Shown piece after piece: positions 5,261-23,895 of a DNA stretch of 27,923 nucleotides. This DNA comes from a virus. The notes below the pieces were generated by a model that searched no databases, was not told where the DNA came from, and saw nothing but the letters and a program-made list of their open reading frames with translations. Where the stretch lies: positions 1 through 27,923 of IMG/VR virus record IMGVR_UViG_3300035698_009791; one strand, given 5' to 3'. Within the stretch, counting starts at the first letter, position 1, and each line of letters opens with the position of its first letter. The translations under genes and the position numbers were made by a program.

Positions 5261-5461
5261 TTAATATTTATTACGATTAAGAACTTCATCTATAGCCTTT
5301 TCCTCCCATTGAAATTTACCTCTATTTTTATTAAATGCTATCCGACATTCATCTAAAAGTTCATCTTTTATATTTATTGGTTTTTTCATTGTTCCTAAAA
5401 AATATAAACAAATACGTGCACCATCAGTTTTATTTTTACTCATATCATATTGTATTATCAT
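5261..5461 (-). CDS. Hypothetical protein, 66 aa; first gene after a promoter
   Basis: MIIQYDMSKNKTDGARICLYFLGTM, then KDELLDECRIAFNKNRGKFQWEEKAIDEVL. No domain recognised. It lies 8 nt after the -10 box of a canonical promoter (5470-5498), so its message would have a leader of 0-2 nt, and no SD is present. It heads the transcription unit carrying the primase-like gene and the tRNA. Confidence 0.65.
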   Translation of the reverse strand: MIIQYDMSKNKTDGARICLYFLGTMKKPINIKDELLDECRIAFNKNRGKFQWEEKAIDEVLNRNKY

Positions 5462-5469
5462 ATATTAAT

Positions 5470-5498
5470 ATTATATAATACTTAATAGAAAAGGTCAA
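5470..5498 (-). promoter_or_regulatory. Sigma70 promoter, leaderless arrangement
   Basis: TTGACC (5493-5498), 17 bp, TATAAT (5470-5475), pointing left. The -10 box ends 8 nt before the ATG at 5461, so transcription should start within about 2 nt of the start codon. The -35 overlaps the stop of the upstream gene (TATTGACC contains the TGA). Confidence 0.85.
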
Positions 5499-5770
5499 TA
5501 GGTTTTTTGCTTCCATCCATATTCTAAAGTAAAGATACCTGCAAAATTATTAAGGTCTTTTATCCTTTTAGTGGGAAAGTTCATTAATTTATTTCTAGCT
5601 TCTTTATTATCCTTTAAGTATTTTACTAACCATTCTATATATTGTTTTTCTTCATTATCTGTCCATTCATATTCTAAATACCAATTATCCTTTTTAAAAT
5701 CAATATCTTTAAAATTAACATCGACTCTTTTGCACATTTCTTTTAATATTTCTTTTAGATATTTGTTCAT
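5495..5770 (-). CDS. Hypothetical phage protein, 91 aa
   Basis: Start chosen at 5770 (MNKYLKEILKEMCKRV), 4 nt after the upstream TAA in TATATG context; an ATG at 5806 would overlap the previous gene by 32 nt. Contains WYLEYEWTDNEEKQYIEWLVKYLKDNKEARNKLM and ends TLEYGWKQKTY. The YEWT.EE...IEWL pattern occurs in uncharacterised phage proteins as I remember. No function known. Its TGA lies inside the -35 box of the next promoter. Confidence 0.65.
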   Translation of the reverse strand: MNKYLKEILKEMCKRVDVNFKDIDFKKDNWYLEYEWTDNEEKQYIEWLVKYLKDNKEARNKLMNFPTKRIKDLNNFAGIFTLEYGWKQKTY

Positions 5771-6201: not shown

Positions 6202-6269
6202 ATAAATTTCTCTAAGTATTTTATAGAGTCTTTTTCTATCGCTTTTTTCAATATTTCTTCGTTAGTCAT
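6198..6269 (-). CDS. Microprotein, 23 aa
   Basis: MTNEEILKKAIEKDSIKYLEKFI*: a short charged helix. MTNEEILKKAIEKA-like openings are common in small phage proteins. It sits between the large terminase stop and the next ATG (ATGA overlap), so it may serve mainly for translational coupling. Confidence 0.45.
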   Translation of the reverse strand: MTNEEILKKAIEKDSIKYLEKFI

Positions 6270-6273
6270 AATT

Positions 6274-7905
6274 TTATAATGAAAATATTTCTGGAACTCC
6301 ACCTAGATTAAATATCTCTTTTGCTAAGTTTGCATAATTGTAAGCATGTCTATAATGGTCAGGACCAGTCTTTAAATATTGTGCTACTATATCTCCTTTC
6401 TTATTTTCATTCTGAACTCTAGTTAAGTTCTTCATTTGTTTTTTAAAGTCTACATATACATCAATATTCTTTGGTATCTTTATATTTTGTTTTTTAATTT
6501 CATTAGTTGATTTATCTAAACTCATTGTTCTCCCTGTCGTTACTTTAAGTTCTTCTGTTCTAAACCATTGTCCTTTAGTAAATCCACTTGTATCGACATA
6601 CCAACACATATGGTTATTTCCTTGAGCTCTTTTACAAAATTCTTCAGCTGCTCTTCCTTCGGGATTACCATCAATAACTGCACATTTACTTTTATATTGT
6701 TCTGCTAATCCTACTAATTCATCTACTGTTCTACATTCACCAGTATATAATAATTTTTCTTTATCTATTATTACTATATGAAATATTTTACCTACATCAA
6801 CCCCCATGAATGCATGGTCACTTAATTGTGGAATAGTATAATCTCTTTTACATGCATCTATATCATGTTCAGTAAGTTTACCACCTTTAGGTTCATATGT
6901 TAATCCTAATGATTGATTCATGAATTGCATTACTTCCCATTCTGTTTCTTTTTCACTCTCTTCTATTAATTCATCAAGGTCTAATAAAGGACTATATAAT
7001 TGACTTATTTGATATCCTCTTTTACTTTTATCGGGATATTTAGGAACCCATTCTATTTGGCATGTATAAGGAACTATTTTCTTTTTACATTTTTTACAAA
7101 TTACTTGTTTATTTTCTTTATCTATATTCTCCCAAAAATCTAATTCTTGCCATTCATTACAATGAGGACATTTCAATTGTAAATGATGTTGGTCTGATTC
7201 ATTAAATTTATTATCTATTCCAAAGTTAGGTATCGTTGGTGTGCTTCTCCATCTCATCCATTTCCTCTTACTATGCATTGTTCTTTTCTTTAGAAAAGGA
7301 ATGCTTTCAATTAACATTCTATCTAACTCATCTACGAATACTGCATCTGCTGAAACTGATGTTATTTGTGTTGGTCTATTTGCTCCCCTAAAATAAATAA
7401 ATCCTTTACTCATTCTTTTCAATCCTACCTTATCCGTTTGTTTCTTCATTATCTTTTTCACCCTACCGGATACCATTGATAAATATTTACTATTATTAAT
7501 GGGCTCATCTATTCTTTCTTGTACTAAATCAGATACTGTTCCACTAGTAGGAAATACATATAATGAATTTTCTCTATATTGGTCGGGCAACCATAATGCT
7601 TCAGTTATCATTCTTTCGGTAATACCTGCCTGGGCTGACTTTTTGAATGTTATATCTGGATGTTGGTCTTCATATAGTTTTTCTACATAAGTATGATTAC
7701 CATTATTGTATTTACCTAAGTCTAATGGTTTATCTCTTACTGACCAATATTTCTCTACCCAATGAAGATAACTTTCTGTTTTATCCTTTTTGTTGTTCGT
7801 TAGTTTCTGGATTATCTGTATTTTGTTTTCCCTCTCCTTGAGTTTCTGCAATTTTTTTAATTCGTTGTTTAAGTTCTTCAATGTGTCTATCGAGTTGTTC
7901 TCCAT
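6274..7905 (-). CDS. terL: Terminase large subunit (GpA-type)
   Basis: The DNA-packaging motor ATPase and nuclease. Numbering from the ATG at 7905 (543 aa): Walker A-like KSAQAGITE (89-97), Walker B AVFVDELD (188-195), a zinc ribbon CPHC...CKKC (246-273) as in lambda GpA-like terminases, then an RNase H-like nuclease with GVDVG (Asp370), AVIDGNPEGR (Asp412) and a late GPDHYRHAYNYA segment. The complex binds the small subunit, cuts concatemers and pumps DNA into proheads. The reading frame has several ATGs between 7905 and 7944, all inside the small-subunit gene, so the true start is uncertain but overlaps that gene by at least 125 nt. A coiled N-terminus (about 1-45) falls in the overlap. Confidence 0.9.
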   Translation of the reverse strand: MENNSIDTLKNLNNELKKLQKLKERENKIQIIQKLTNNKKDKTESYLHWVEKYWSVRDKPLDLGKYNNGNHTYVEKLYEDQHPDITFKKSAQAGITERMITEALWLPDQYRENSLYVFPTSGTVSDLVQERIDEPINNSKYLSMVSGRVKKIMKKQTDKVGLKRMSKGFIYFRGANRPTQITSVSADAVFVDELDRMLIESIPFLKKRTMHSKRKWMRWRSTPTIPNFGIDNKFNESDQHHLQLKCPHCNEWQELDFWENIDKENKQVICKKCKKKIVPYTCQIEWVPKYPDKSKRGYQISQLYSPLLDLDELIEESEKETEWEVMQFMNQSLGLTYEPKGGKLTEHDIDACKRDYTIPQLSDHAFMGVDVGKIFHIVIIDKEKLLYTGECRTVDELVGLAEQYKSKCAVIDGNPEGRAAEEFCKRAQGNNHMCWYVDTSGFTKGQWFRTEELKVTTGRTMSLDKSTNEIKKQNIKIPKNIDVYVDFKKQMKNLTRVQNENKKGDIVAQYLKTGPDHYRHAYNYANLAKEIFNLGGVPEIFSL

Positions 7906-10220: not shown

Positions 10221-10445
10221 TTATTTTATCCAAAATTTATACCATTTTCTTTTATAATCTTTACAATCACCATCTATATTGAATTCATCACAATCTCCTC
10301 TATTTCCTCTAGTGTAATTATTAAGAGTACAATAATTTTCTATATTGTATTCATCTATCACTATCACTATTTCATATTTACAATTCTTACAATATACTTT
10401 CTTTTTATTCATTTCATCTATTACTTTATTTTGTGTTTTACTCAT
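10221..10445 (-). CDS. Small Cys-rich protein, 74 aa
   Basis: MSKTQNKVIDEMNKKKVYCKNCKYE, then NYCTLNNYTRG, then GDCDEFNIDGDCKDYKRKWYKFWIK. The CxxC...C...C...C spacing with a terminal C..Y.RKWY is a recurrent layout of small phage proteins of unknown function (possible zinc site). It is the first ORF after the large structured RNA. Confidence 0.65.
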   Translation of the reverse strand: MSKTQNKVIDEMNKKKVYCKNCKYEIVIVIDEYNIENYCTLNNYTRGNRGDCDEFNIDGDCKDYKRKWYKFWIK

Positions 10446-10817
10446 ATTTTTTTTAATATATAATATATAGGGAGGAAGATTAGGTTTTCTTCCAATATGG
10501 GTCTTTATTCATCTTTTATTTTTGCAAACTAGTAAAGCCCACTCTACTAATTAGGAGCTATTCCCAAAGACAGGAAACTGTTGCTCTAAATTATACAATC
10601 TATATACCAAACCTAGGAGATAGCATATAAATAACTTAACGCATAATTGGCTCATTTAAGTTTATTTGGAGCCTCTCGGTAGTGATACCTTTTTATTTAA
10701 TGTAATCATTACACATATACCAACTACTAACCGACATCCTATTCAGCTTTCATTGTGCTTTATTCACTCACTTATGAATTATTCAGCCACCCCTAAATAT
10801 TATATATTAATAATTCT

Positions 10818-10907
10818 TATAGCCTCCACTTAATAAAAAGTGAAAGCCTGAAAAAAATACCTATTCTTCGCTTAATTTTGTCCCCATGCAATTAAGGTGA
10901 AGCTATA
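10818..10907 (-). repeat. RNA module B (related to module A)
   Basis: Closed by TATAGC/GCTATA. It starts GCTTCACCTTAATTG, folds through CTTAATT/AATTAAG, has a CACTT/AAGTG hairpin and ends GAGGCTATA. It shares 14 of 15 positions with the 5' part of module A and the GAGGCT end. Confidence 0.65.
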
Positions 10908-10942
10908 AAAATCATTATTTTTAATGAACTATATTACTTATC

Positions 10943-11022
10943 TAGAGCCTCAATATAATTTCTTATATTAAGACCTAATTAACTAACTCATTTTAATTTA
11001 TGACAATTAAGATGAAGCTCTA
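10943..11022 (-). repeat. RNA module A (related to module B)
   Basis: Closed by TAGAGC/GCTCTA. It starts GCTTCATCTTAATTG, folds through CATcTTAATT/AATTAAaATG, and ends GAGGCTCTA. Against module B the closing helix differs by a compensatory G-C to T-A change, which supports the pairing. Confidence 0.65.
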
Positions 11023-11209
11023 AATAACTAATGAATCAGATTACGGAGATGGATAGCTTCAATATTTCCGCTATCTAATAAGTTTGAAAATACTCCCTTA
11101 TTATACACCTCTACTGGGATAATTATATTTTGAAAATTATGTAAAATATTTATCAAGAGATTTTATTATTTTCAATATAATTATTCTGATTCTTATTACT
11201 TATATTAAT

Positions 11210-11238
11210 ATTATATATTATTTAAAGAAATAAGTCAA
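11210..11238 (-). promoter_or_regulatory. Sigma70 promoter of the large RNA
   Basis: TTGACT (11233-11238), 17 bp, TATAAT (11210-11215), pointing left. Expected transcription start near 11203. ACCTATTGAC around the -35 is shared with the 5.5-kb promoter. Confidence 0.85.
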
Positions 11239-12967: not shown

Positions 12968-13570
12968 TTAATTAATACTTTCTATATCTTCTTCACCTTT
13001 ATCTAATTGGTCTGATTCCCATTTTAAGAATCTAAATGATTTTAATTTAAATGCATCAAATCCAAATAATGTTTCTTTTCTTATTACAATTCCTTCTTCT
13101 GGTACTTTATTTTTACACATAAAGCAATCCTTATCATTATATTTTTTTTCTAATCCTTTAATAAATAATTCTTCCCAATTTTGCTCTAAAATATTAAACA
13201 TATCTTTTGCTTTACCCTGATAAAATACATATACATATTCTAATTCATATCTATCACAAAATTCTTTTATTTGTTCTGATGATAATTCATTTACTATACC
13301 ATCATAATTTGTAAATGTAATTCTATAAATTTGTAATCTCTTTTCTCCTTCATTACATCCATAATCATATTCTCCCTGAATTGCTTTGCCACTTTTTGTA
13401 TATCCTAAACATTCTCCATATATCGTGTATCCTTTTGGTATAAATTCTTTTATTTCATCTTTTATTTCTCCCCATAAATCACTTCCATAGAAATCTTGTT
13501 TGTATTGTGTTTCATATTCATTCTTTACTACTTTTCTTGATAATTTTTTTAATAATTTTAATATTTTCAT
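12968..13570 (-). CDS. RNA ligase, C-terminal half of a split gene
   Basis: 200 aa carrying the later nucleotidyltransferase motifs of a DraRnl/Rnl2-like RNA ligase: SRKVVKNEYE (11-20, end of motif III), YTIYGECLGYT (48-58, motif IIIa area), EEGIVIRKE (158-166, motif IV) and FKLKSFRFL (174-182, motif V). It lacks the nucleophilic Lys, which is in the ORF at 14388-15137. A GIY-YIG gene lies between and its stop overlaps this ATG by 4 nt. The first ten residues (MKILKLLKKL) look like new coding added to provide a start. The two halves could assemble into one enzyme. Confidence 0.78.
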   Translation of the reverse strand: MKILKLLKKLSRKVVKNEYETQYKQDFYGSDLWGEIKDEIKEFIPKGYTIYGECLGYTKSGKAIQGEYDYGCNEGEKRLQIYRITFTNYDGIVNELSSEQIKEFCDRYELEYVYVFYQGKAKDMFNILEQNWEELFIKGLEKKYNDKDCFMCKNKVPEEGIVIRKETLFGFDAFKLKSFRFLKWESDQLDKGEEDIESIN

Positions 13571-14328
13571 ATATTTTTATATTTTACTTTATGTCCATAA
13601 AATATTTTTAGATTGTTTTTGTTTTTCAATACACTTGTTAAATGAGATGAGTTTTTGCCAAAATATTCATTTGTCGATTTAATCGAATCAAATTCTTTTA
13701 TTAATTTTCCATTTAAATCATATAATAATACTGCTTTTTTTGTTTTACTTCTATCTTTTCTCTTTGGATGGTCTTTCCATTTATTTCCATAATATTTATA
13801 TGACCAACAATACCCATAATTACACCATCTTTTCTTTATTGCTGACCTAATATTTGCCGAATCGAATCCTACTTCTCTTTTTATATCTGCACCACTGTAC
13901 CATTTTTTCATAAAAATACCTTCACCGCTATATTGATATATAATTCTAGATGATGGGTTATCCTTTCCTTTTTTACCTCGTCTAAAATGATTTAATGATT
14001 TTTTCAAATTACCTTCTTTTGTACCTTTAATTCCTATTGTACTTCCAGCTATTTTGCATATATTATATTTTGGTTTTAATTTATCAATATAGTATTGCTC
14101 CCTTTTAATTAACTTATCTATTTTACAAATTTCTATAATTATAAATTTTAATTTTTCTTTACCAACTTTATTATATGCTCGTTGTAATATTATAGAATGG
14201 TGATATTGTTTTTTAAGTCTACTAAAATGTGTTCTCTTTCTCCCATCTAAGTTAATAGCACTTCCAATATAAATATTACCATTTGTTAAATTTTCTATTT
14301 TATATATTCCTGATATTGTATTTTTCAT
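13567..14328 (-). CDS. GIY-YIG homing endonuclease with NUMOD-type DNA-binding repeats
   Basis: 253 aa. N-terminal GIY-YIG nuclease: GIY (7-9), YIG (20-22), catalytic Arg in LDGRKRTHF (28-35) and Glu77 in LIKREQYYID. A linker follows (about 95-125), then two NUMOD1/IENR1-like units, about 130-180 (IIYQYSGEGIFMKKWYSG...) and 195-250 (AVLLYDLNGKLIKEFDS...), which bind target DNA. It sits exactly between the halves of the RNA ligase gene, so it is probably the mobile invader that split it. Its own promoter (14342-14370) lies just upstream with a leader of only a few nt. Confidence 0.9.
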   Translation of the reverse strand: MKNTISGIYKIENLTNGNIYIGSAINLDGRKRTHFSRLKKQYHHSIILQRAYNKVGKEKLKFIIIEICKIDKLIKREQYYIDKLKPKYNICKIAGSTIGIKGTKEGNLKKSLNHFRRGKKGKDNPSSRIIYQYSGEGIFMKKWYSGADIKREVGFDSANIRSAIKKRWCNYGYCWSYKYYGNKWKDHPKRKDRSKTKKAVLLYDLNGKLIKEFDSIKSTNEYFGKNSSHLTSVLKNKNNLKIFYGHKVKYKNI

Positions 14329-14341
14329 ATAATTATTAATA

Positions 14342-14370
14342 CTTATATACTATATAAAAAATAAAGTCAA
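14342..14370 (-). promoter_or_regulatory. Sigma70 promoter of the homing endonuclease
   Basis: TTGACT (14365-14370), 17 bp, TATAAG (14342-14347), pointing left, in the 59-bp gap between the RNA ligase N-half and the GIY-YIG gene. Start codon 13 nt past the -10 box. It allows the endonuclease and ligase C-half to be expressed separately from the N-half. Confidence 0.75.
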
Positions 14371-14387
14371 GTAGTTAAAAACTAATA

Positions 14388-15137
14388 TTACAAATCACTA
14401 TTTTTTATAACTTTTCGACTGCCATATACATAATCATATTCTTTATCATTAATTTTTACTCTAATTAATTTTAGAAATTTTTCTAATATATTAAGTTTTC
14501 TTTTTACTAATAAATTTGCTACCCACCAACTCGTTCCATGAGTTTTATATGTTATTGTAATATTATCTTCTGGTTTTATTTTATGTGCATTTTTTCTTAA
14601 ATTTTCTGTTTCAATATGAAATCTAACTTGTCCATCAACTAATCTTGATATTCTAGCTTTTTTACCTTGCTTTCCTTGTCCTTCTTGATTTCTGGTTTTT
14701 ACAATATACTTTTTTACCATTAAATAATCTCCAATAGTATCAAATTCTTTATTAGTATAATCACTTAAATCATATTGATTTCCTAAAAAATCTTCTAATT
14801 CTTTTATTGGTATAATATATCCCATTGATTTCTCTCCTCTTAATTTCATTGCTTTTACTCTACAATTATCTTCAAAAAATCCAATCTTTTCTTTATCTTG
14901 ATTTAATTCTTTATGTCTAAATGAATTTGTAAATGATAAAAATTCTTTATTTATTTGACACTCTAATGGGAAAAAACAATATATATCACCATCTTTTGCT
15001 TCAAGTCCTGTAATTACATTCTGAAAATCAATACTAACAATTTGTAATCTATCAGCATTTTCGTGTTTTCGTAATCCTTTTAATTTTACTATTTTTGCCA
15101 AATAATTTACATTGGCATTTTTAGATGTACATATCAT
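14388..15137 (-). CDS. RNA ligase, N-terminal half of a split gene
   Basis: 249 aa. Residues about 10-60 (AKIVKLKGLRKHENADRLQIVSI... and TGLEAKDGDIYCFFPLECQ) form an OB-fold/tRNA-binding-like domain seen at the start of DraRnl-type ligases. The ligase domain begins near 170, with the nucleophile motif I YKTHGTSWW (Lys198) and motif III YDYVYGSRKVIKN (234-246), then stops after SDL. Motifs IIIa, IV and V are in 12968-13570. RNA ligases of this kind seal nicked or broken RNA, for example tRNAs cleaved by host defence. The family is assigned from motifs; the substrate is inferred. Confidence 0.78.
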   Translation of the reverse strand: MICTSKNANVNYLAKIVKLKGLRKHENADRLQIVSIDFQNVITGLEAKDGDIYCFFPLECQINKEFLSFTNSFRHKELNQDKEKIGFFEDNCRVKAMKLRGEKSMGYIIPIKELEDFLGNQYDLSDYTNKEFDTIGDYLMVKKYIVKTRNQEGQGKQGKKARISRLVDGQVRFHIETENLRKNAHKIKPEDNITITYKTHGTSWWVANLLVKRKLNILEKFLKLIRVKINDKEYDYVYGSRKVIKNSDL

Positions 15138-21705: not shown

Positions 21706-23895
21706 TTAAAATAATGTTTGTTGTTTTTTAATATTATTGGCAGCTTCTAAATTAAGTTTAGCTTGATTATAATAACTTTGCTTTAATTCAATTCCTATAA
21801 ATTTTCTATCTGCTTTCAATGATTCATATCCTTCACTACCAATTCCCATAAACGGACTAAAAACTAAATCGCCTGGATTAGTCCATAAATATAAACATCT
21901 TTTTATTACTTCTAATTGTAATGGACATATATGTTTTTCATCTTTTTCTTCTCTAGCACTTGTCTTTTGTAATGTTTCTCCCTGTTTAATATCTGTCCAT
22001 ATTGGACTTGCTATTTTTTGCCAATAACTTACTGGATAACTTTCTGGAGTATGTGTAATTGGTTCTAAATTTTCTCCAGGTTTTCTCATTGTAATTAGAT
22101 AATCAGCAATCCCCTGTCTACACATTGAACTATCCTTTTTTATTTGTTTATGTAATAATCCTAATGCTTTTGTTCTTTGCATTGCAACTACTGGGTCTTT
22201 CCAAATAACTACTTCACTTTGAAATATCCATCCTTCATCTTGATACATTCTAATTAAATCACCTCTAAAATCTTTTATGCCAATATATCCCTCAACACTT
22301 TTCCTTGTTGGTAAAAGCATACAATGAAAACTTAATAATCTTCCTGGCTTTGTTATTCTAAGTTGTTCTTTTATCAAAAATTTATAATGTTCATAAAATT
22401 CATTATCATTTTTGCAATTACCCATATCTCTTTCACTATCAGAATAAGTATAAAGACTTGAAAATGGTGGACTAAATATTGAATAATGAATACTATTGTC
22501 TTCTATTTTTTTTGATTGTTCTACACAATCTCCTAACATTATTTTATAATCTTTTCCTTCAATTATTTCTTCATTATATTTTTTTTCTTTTTTCATAAAA
22601 GTAAAATAAGTTTTAACATTATTAATTATATTATCATTCATTTGAATATGTCTTTTTCTTTTTTGTTTTATTGAATTTAAAACTTTAATTTCTTTTTCAC
22701 TTAATACAATATATACATTAACATTATTTTTTTGACCAAATCTCCAACATCTTCGTATTGCTTGATAATATGCTTCATATGAATATGATAATCCACAAAA
22801 AATAACATTACTACAATTTTGCCAGTTCATACCGAATCCAGCTATCTTTGGTTTAGTTATTAGAATATTTACATTACCTTTAGCAAAATCAAGCATTGTT
22901 TTTGCTTTAAATTCATTTGTATTTTTCCCACTTAATTGAGTACTATTTTTTATTTTTTTTTCTAATAAATCACCTTCAATATTATAATCGCACCAAATAA
23001 TAAATTGTTTATTTGGATTATTATTTATTATTTTTTCAACTTCATTAACTCTATTATTTAAACTTTCTTTTCTTGCTCCACGAATTTCATTAAATCCTTG
23101 TGCTGGCATAGTAAATAATTGTCCTTCTGTTCTTTTACTTTTTAATAATATTTCATTTTCAATTAACTTTGGTATTTTATATTTTTCATTATCAAACCCA
23201 ATATCTCCTGGGTCTGTTAACATTACTGACCATGTTCCTATAAATTTCCAAAATTCAGATTCCGCATGTCCCTTTAATCTCCATGTCTTTGAATGTGAAA
23301 CATCATTTATAAAATACATTGCTAACATTTCTACTCTACTTGTAACATTTAAAAATTCACAATGATTACCTAATTCCATAAAATCATTAGGGCTAGGTGT
23401 AGCAGTACATGCAAGTTTATATTTAGTAAACTGAAAATCATCTATTAATTTATTTCTAAATTTACCAGTATATGATTTTAAAATTGAACTTTCATCTAAC
23501 ACTATTCCTACAAAATCATCTGCATTAAATTTATGAAGTTTTTCATAATTAGTAATATTAATACCATTTATTATGTCTGATTGTTCTTCAACTATTTTAA
23601 CATCAATTCCAAACTTCCCTCCCTCTTCTTTTGTTTGTTGACTAACTGCTAATGGTGCTAAGATTAATATTGGTTTATTTTCTTTTTTATTAATTTGATT
23701 AGCCCATTCAAGTTGCATTATTGTTTTACCAAGTCCACAATCTGCAAAAATAGCACTTCTTCCTTTTTTTAATGACCATTTAACAATAGCTTTTTGAAAA
23801 TCAAATAAATGTTTATTTAATTTATTTTCATCAATATCAAATCCACTATTTTCAATTTTTAATATTTTTTTATCTAAAAACTTATTATAACTCAT
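21706..23895 (-). CDS. SNF2-type helicase fused to DNA methyltransferase
   Basis: 729 aa. N-terminal SF2/SNF2-like ATPase: Walker A ADCGLGKT (51-58), LDESS box (133-137), TATPSP (164-169), and motif VI QAIRRCWRFGQ (378-388). C-terminal amino-methyltransferase from about 450: MLGDCVE, catalytic SPPF (475-478, typical of N4-cytosine/N6-adenine enzymes with motif IV first), and SAM motif SPFMGIGSEGYESL (680-693), with GIEL after it. It may translocate on DNA while methylating, or read host marks. No nuclease is fused. The terminal KKQQTLF matches the QxxLF clamp-binding pentapeptide. Start ATG is 4 nt past the clamp gene. Confidence 0.9.
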   Translation of the reverse strand: MSYNKFLDKKILKIENSGFDIDENKLNKHLFDFQKAIVKWSLKKGRSAIFADCGLGKTIMQLEWANQINKKENKPILILAPLAVSQQTKEEGGKFGIDVKIVEEQSDIINGINITNYEKLHKFNADDFVGIVLDESSILKSYTGKFRNKLIDDFQFTKYKLACTATPSPNDFMELGNHCEFLNVTSRVEMLAMYFINDVSHSKTWRLKGHAESEFWKFIGTWSVMLTDPGDIGFDNEKYKIPKLIENEILLKSKRTEGQLFTMPAQGFNEIRGARKESLNNRVNEVEKIINNNPNKQFIIWCDYNIEGDLLEKKIKNSTQLSGKNTNEFKAKTMLDFAKGNVNILITKPKIAGFGMNWQNCSNVIFCGLSYSYEAYYQAIRRCWRFGQKNNVNVYIVLSEKEIKVLNSIKQKRKRHIQMNDNIINNVKTYFTFMKKEKKYNEEIIEGKDYKIMLGDCVEQSKKIEDNSIHYSIFSPPFSSLYTYSDSERDMGNCKNDNEFYEHYKFLIKEQLRITKPGRLLSFHCMLLPTRKSVEGYIGIKDFRGDLIRMYQDEGWIFQSEVVIWKDPVVAMQRTKALGLLHKQIKKDSSMCRQGIADYLITMRKPGENLEPITHTPESYPVSYWQKIASPIWTDIKQGETLQKTSAREEKDEKHICPLQLEVIKRCLYLWTNPGDLVFSPFMGIGSEGYESLKADRKFIGIELKQSYYNQAKLNLEAANNIKKQQTLF

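Follow-up and report, generated by a model that had tools for sequence, protein, structure and literature searches.

The window analysed here, a 27,923-nt (27.9-kb) viral contig, carries on its minus strand (11203-10455) the locus of a non-coding RNA of ~750 nt, the 3' domain of which is an enlarged relative of manA RNA and a member of the manA-core group. Our preferred reading, to which a probability of roughly 0.55 is given, is of a phage RNA that has a strong promoter of its own, is made as a ~750-nt precursor and acts in trans as a scaffold, with a conserved 5' domain, a variable middle and an enlarged manA-core 3' domain.

Promoter, fold and homologues of the RNA

An initial inspection of this DNA (the sequence-only reading) had described a large structured RNA behind a strong promoter, and this observation was confirmed. 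The following features were assigned.

11210-11238, minus strand: sigma-70-type promoter, TTGACT-N17-TATAAT; same layout upstream of both homologues (L077 and G001)
11033-11192, minus strand: 5' domain with a UCAGA/UCUGA closing helix, a long hairpin (AAUAAUU..AAUUAU), UCCCAG and a second hairpin; kept in L077 and G001
10938-11027, minus strand: module 1 (AGCUUC..GAGGCU) with a 15-bp closing helix; homologous module in G001
about 10809-10916, minus strand: module 2, paralogous to module 1 and resembling the module of L077
10455-10808, minus strand: 3' domain with a 16-bp closing helix and a multiloop of manA topology, arm P4 enlarged; from the three-sequence fold and covariation
10751-10794, minus strand: manA-type core, GGUGGCUGAAUAA-hairpin-UAAAGC; matched by model R1 (27.9 bits, E=8.9e-7)
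10470-10493 (end points approximate), minus strand: terminal hairpin GGAAG-AAAACCUAAU-CUUCC beside the closing helix; manA has counterparts
10221-10445, minus strand: 74-aa Cys-rich ORF starting 10 nt past the RNA, no Shine-Dalgarno sequence; G001 has a similar ORF ahead of its 3' domain

The promoter claimed for the RNA is present at 11238-11210, scores 11/12 against the consensus and is the top candidate in the region; its layout is kept in both homologues (TTGACT-N17-TATAAT in L077 and TTGACA-N17-TATAAT in G001). Transcription probably starts near 11203. A second copy (88%) of the promoter region was observed at 5453-5508 (minus strand), ahead of a 66-aa ORF (5261-5461), and copies also occur in L077, L078 and L076. 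The RNA region had been said to lack an ORF, which held on examination: the longest ATG frame on the transcribed strand is only 34 aa, with no plausible ORF, and the opposite strand has only a 55-aa TTG frame. Dense folding on the transcribed strand was likewise borne out, the whole RNA having a predicted energy of -186.8 kcal/mol versus -147 +/- 5.4 for dinucleotide shuffles (z -7.4). Folded separately, the 3' domain and the 5' half gave z values of -3.6 and -4.6, and both halves fold well in the window, L077 and G001.

Relatives were obtained using terminase and DNA-polymerase searches, which returned four related contigs. Distant relatives of these two proteins were confined to the same few viral contigs, with none in bacterial genomes, and no known phage of note was found by DNA similarity to the window. 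The RNA is present in two of the four contigs, L077 and the 81-kb G001, in the syntenic position ahead of the terminase gene (83% identity to the window over the 3' 370 nt for L077; 77% for G001); the RNA query gave only a promoter-like match in the other two. The promoter, the small 5' domain and the ~350-nt 3' domain are kept in all three genomes, and the middle is variable. At this position L077 has a tRNA-Leu(UAA), inside the RNA, and one module; in G001 a single module is accompanied by other hairpins and by a 75-aa ORF that precedes the 3' domain and resembles the ORF that follows the RNA in the window. An additional candidate search marker, TTTGCAAAAATAAAAGATGA, matched only the RNA's own family and chance sequences and was rejected.

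The long helix proposed near the 5' end is real and is kept in both homologues; in the consensus of the 5' domain, derived from three sequences, two of 20 pairs exhibit double, compensatory changes. Two modules sharing GCTTCAyCTTAATTG and GAGGCT had been described downstream, and both were found (11027-10938 and about 10916-10809), each shut by a helix of 15-18 bp. The compensatory difference between their closing helices (G-C to U-A) can be read directly off the sequence. Module 1 has a counterpart with 73% identity in G001 (G001:57276-57376), and single related modules were located in L077 (360-445) and G001 (L168:1284-1372). The duplicated modules are a variable middle and not the defining part of the RNA, because the relatives have a tRNA in their place or an ORF after them. 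GCTTCAyCTTAATTG was also tried as a family marker and rejected, since all of its 72 matches in viral contigs were due to chance.

Covariation in homologues had been proposed as a test of the fold, and the outcome was supportive. RNAalifold of the three 3' domains gave 105 base pairs, with 97% of alignment cells paired and with changes on both sides in 24 of the 105 pairs, a count that comes from three close sequences and a structure derived from the same alignment. Shuffled controls contained 10 +/- 2.3 such pairs (0/500 reaching 24) and slid controls 0-4. These data strongly support the 3' fold as a whole; they say little about single pairs because there are only three sequences.

Other features of the window were recorded. 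An RNA ligase gene (phrog_968; 12968-15137, minus strand) is split in two around a homing-endonuclease gene (13567-14328), and no group I intron was called by Rfam; the RNA ligase of G001 is a single 429-aa ORF (46141-47430). The N-terminal half of a 729-aa protein (21706-23895, minus strand) matches helicase families, and its C-terminal half matches DNA methyltransferases. Minus-strand genes have A/T-rich leaders without Shine-Dalgarno sequences (no match in 17 of 27, the best match being 4 nt) as in Bacteroidota, yet the promoters look like those of sigma-70.

The manA-type core and its distribution

Cmscan of L077 gave manA RNA (20 bits, E=0.004) as the sole notable match besides the tRNA, and this match preceded any pattern-making. 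Alignment of L077 with manA placed an exact block, GUGACUGAAUAA-hairpin-UAAGGU, straight after the closing helix. The 3' domain of the window opens in the same manner with GGUG[A/G]CUGAAUAA-hairpin-UAA[A/G]G[U/C], a sequence characteristic of manA RNA (RF01745). A search with RF01745 detected L077 (E 2e-5 in its record) and G001 (13 bits, E 0.02) and gave no match on the window; the curated cut-off of 55.2 bits was not reached by the window, L077 or G001. A covariance model (R1) was built from 16 other manA cores, with no member of the window's family included. This model matched the window RNA with 27.9 bits (E=8.9e-7) and L077 and G001 with 45-47 bits, and these were the sole matches in those records.

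The core contains a 2-bp helix that reads A-U/C-G in every one of the 16 model RNAs; the window has G-C/C-G, so that pairing is kept by a compensatory change. As the window was not used in building the patterns, its change from A-U to G-C is independent evidence; the scan patterns fix the core bases, and alternation between A-U and G-C among scan matches is not by itself independent. The order of the arms, compared by eye between the RNAalifold three-sequence structure and the Rfam manA structure line, is the same in manA and the window family (i.e. closing helix, core hairpin, P3, P4, terminal hairpin, closing helix). The extra ~210 nt of the window family are situated in P4.

A pattern derived from the block shared by L077 and manA identified 45 viral stretches, nearly all manA-like, and a scan with the G-C form of the core identified at least 119, the majority with a well-formed hairpin. 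The core had 18 matches in bacterial genomes, none with a hairpin. Among 48 records (the window, its two homologues, L186 and 44 others), RF01745 gave a manA match at E<=0.1 in 41, only 4 of which pass the Rfam cut-off. After removal of near-duplicates, core plus hairpin was present at 77 or more loci (i.e. at least 77, the window and its two homologues included). Among the matches listed, a heuristic search found a confident closing helix at 54 of 77 loci, with 114-473 nt (median 163) from the core to the closing strand; 12 of these 54 span 261-400 nt, the range of the window, where the distance is 317 nt.

A same-strand tRNA lies within 200 nt upstream or 300 nt downstream of 17 of the 77 core loci among the matches listed, and several contigs have the core RNA between tRNA genes. 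For the 49 group members with enough sequence, again among the matches listed, the next feature was a tRNA within 150 nt in 8, an ORF in 28 and neither in 13. The 28 ORFs included only two related pairs. Collectively, the shared short core indicates a class of phage RNAs that is widespread and lacks a functional explanation. The core was also looked for in the ~800-nt non-coding RNA of ICP1 and was absent.

Contigs with manA-like RNAs had other RNA features. A permuted tmRNA was observed in a phage contig that also carries manA RNA (L175:3101-3415, minus strand), and ARAGORN calls a tmRNA in seven further manA contigs. Two Hammerhead_II ribozyme matches (L198:5296-5358 and 6231-6294, minus strand) occur in a phage contig with a manA-like RNA, and another contig has a tandem pair of manA-like matches (L229; G012:4583-4966).

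Proposed function and alternatives

In the preferred reading, the RNA's own strong promoter would yield a ~750-nt precursor transcript, the middle of which would be a variable linker or cargo (i.e. hairpin modules in the window, tRNA-Leu in L077, an ORF in G001). Together with the closing helix, the GUG[R]CUGAAUAA core would form a compact multiloop, a scaffold on which the linked cargo is carried or displayed in trans. Such a scaffold would probably work as an RNA-only oligomer or in association with the translation machinery, in line with proposals for GOLLD and ROOL; oligomer formation and tRNA or ribosome partners are speculative, and analogy with these RNAs also suggests the scaffold with a variable cargo region. 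Transcription in the window phage and action in trans are likely. Downstream genes are not conserved, making a shared metabolite-controlled regulon unlikely and therefore favouring a role in trans. Points against the scaffold are that the covariation comes from three close homologues, that an ORF follows at 10-15 nt in all three, as it would for a cis-regulator, that a same-strand tRNA is nearby in only 17 of the 77 core loci among the matches listed, and that the 5' and 3' parts, being separated by an ORF in G001, need not form one fold.

The spacing of this ORF bears on an alternative that we judge unlikely, in which the RNA is a riboswitch or other cis-regulatory leader controlling the ORF that follows, in keeping with the Rfam class of manA. 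The closing helix ends 10-15 nt before the ATG in the window, L077 and G001 and overlaps the ORF leader, a terminator looked for between the RNA and the ORF was not found, and manA has been described mostly in potential 5' UTRs (PMC2864571). The downstream ORFs, however, are unlike among the three homologues, with only an N-terminal stretch shared between the window and G001, and there is no common downstream gene across the core group, in which some members lie between tRNA genes and 13 of 49 among the matches listed have no ORF within 150 nt. This phage does not rely on Shine-Dalgarno sequences, so a start codon 10-15 nt beyond the RNA would fit simple co-transcription as well as cis control.

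Of similarly low probability is a unit of several independent RNAs (i.e. a 5' RNA, modules or tRNA and a manA-type 3' RNA) that are cut apart, such that no single 730-nt RNA exists. The ORF of G001 and the tRNA of L077 lie between the parts, and tRNA processing would split them; each half folds well alone; and manA, L186 and the Staphylococcus phage K RNA exist without the 5' domain of the window. Against this, one promoter serves all parts, the 5' and 3' parts occur together in all three genomes and the full-length fold is significant.

The sequence-only reading had likened the RNA to GOLLD and ROOL. The similarities in size, setting and architecture stand, as does the lack of a match to either model, but the 3' domain is not an orphan and belongs to the manA-core group. 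Cmscan of the window RNA against all Rfam families (E<=10) gave chance matches only, with none to GOLLD, ROOL or OLE RNA. The GOLLD model (RF02032) had no cmscan match at E<=10 in the window RNA or its homologues and was also negative in a further search, in which no positive control fired. The ROOL model (RF03087) had no match at E<=0.1 in G000, G001 and G002 and detected the control, plasmid pMP118 (130 bits, above the cut-off). The core (E 7e-8) also stands at the 5' end of an RNA in another contig (L288:3733-4243), which lies a short way past a tRNA and is matched by the ROOL model at 86.5 bits (E 6e-16), short of the cut-off; this RNA is a possible bridge between ROOL and manA. The suggestion from this match that ROOL contains the core was withdrawn for ROOL proper, as the core is absent from the canonical ROOL of pMP118. 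That the window RNA is a divergent true GOLLD or ROOL is highly improbable: its size, its phage setting, the conserved 3' region, variable 5' part and linker tRNA (PMC12286853), and the coincidence of core and ROOL-model match in L288 favour such an assignment, and the absence of GOLLD or ROOL matches from the window and its homologues and of the core from the pMP118 ROOL argues against it.

A functionless AT-rich spacer, for which the composition and the ready folding of AT-rich DNA might speak, has a negligible probability and was refuted by covariation, with the z of -7.4 versus dinucleotide shuffles, the conservation and the core match (E 9e-7) also opposing it.

Comparison with known RNAs

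manA has been an unsolved riboswitch candidate since 2010. It shares with the window RNA the core (GUG[R]CUGAAUAA-hairpin-UAA[R]G[Y]), its 2-bp helix and its place just inside the closing helix, the order of the multiloop arms, a terminal hairpin with a CCUAAU-type loop by the closing helix, and a phage setting. The distance from core to closing strand is ~140 nt in manA whereas that of the window RNA is about twice as long (317 nt) with P4 enlarged. The window RNA also differs in lacking the 5' GACG hairpin, in having an extra 5' domain and modules, and in being missed by the Rfam manA model.

A long non-coding RNA of Staphylococcus phage K (37679-38832; L371 = 37400-39200, minus strand) contains the core (29.6 bits, E 5.6e-9), has a TTGACA-N17-TATAAT promoter and is shut by a 21-bp helix around 530 nt. 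The phage K transcriptome has its highest read number in this gp191-gt004 interval, which has its own early promoter (PMC9241854); the RNA is termed lnc001 in the text and lnc002 in a table of that study, and coordinates are used here. It resembles the window RNA in core, promoter type, long closing helix, large domain and phage origin. Differences are the 530 nt from core to closing strand and the tRNA genes downstream; no 5' module region was seen and no similarity to the window RNA was found beyond the core.

ROOL is an octameric RNA-only cage. It is of the same size class as the window RNA and has a phage or plasmid setting, but the window RNA has no ROOL-model match and the canonical pMP118 ROOL is without the core motif. 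GOLLD has a conserved 3' region, a less conserved 5' part and sometimes a tRNA in the linker; ribosome binding has been reported for GOLLD and cages for ROOL (PMC12286853). The window family has the same arrangement, with a linker tRNA in L077, a likeness only and not membership, as there is no model match and no common sequence was found.

A broader proposal, which we hold to be evenly balanced, is that manA has been mis-filed as a riboswitch candidate and that the core inside a closing helix defines a group of trans-acting phage RNAs, ranging from the ~150-nt manA to ornate RNAs of >500 nt, some of them co-transcribed with tRNAs. The window RNA would be an enlarged member with a cargo region and, as part of the same proposal, would stand with the phage K RNA and the ROOL-like RNA at the ornate end. 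No paper naming ROOL and manA together was found in the literature searched, and we know of no function for the RNA-only cages of ROOL and GOLLD. A common core in manA, the phage K RNA, the ROOL-like RNA and the window RNA would join these separate puzzles, and phage K is a cultured system in which the core can be mutated.
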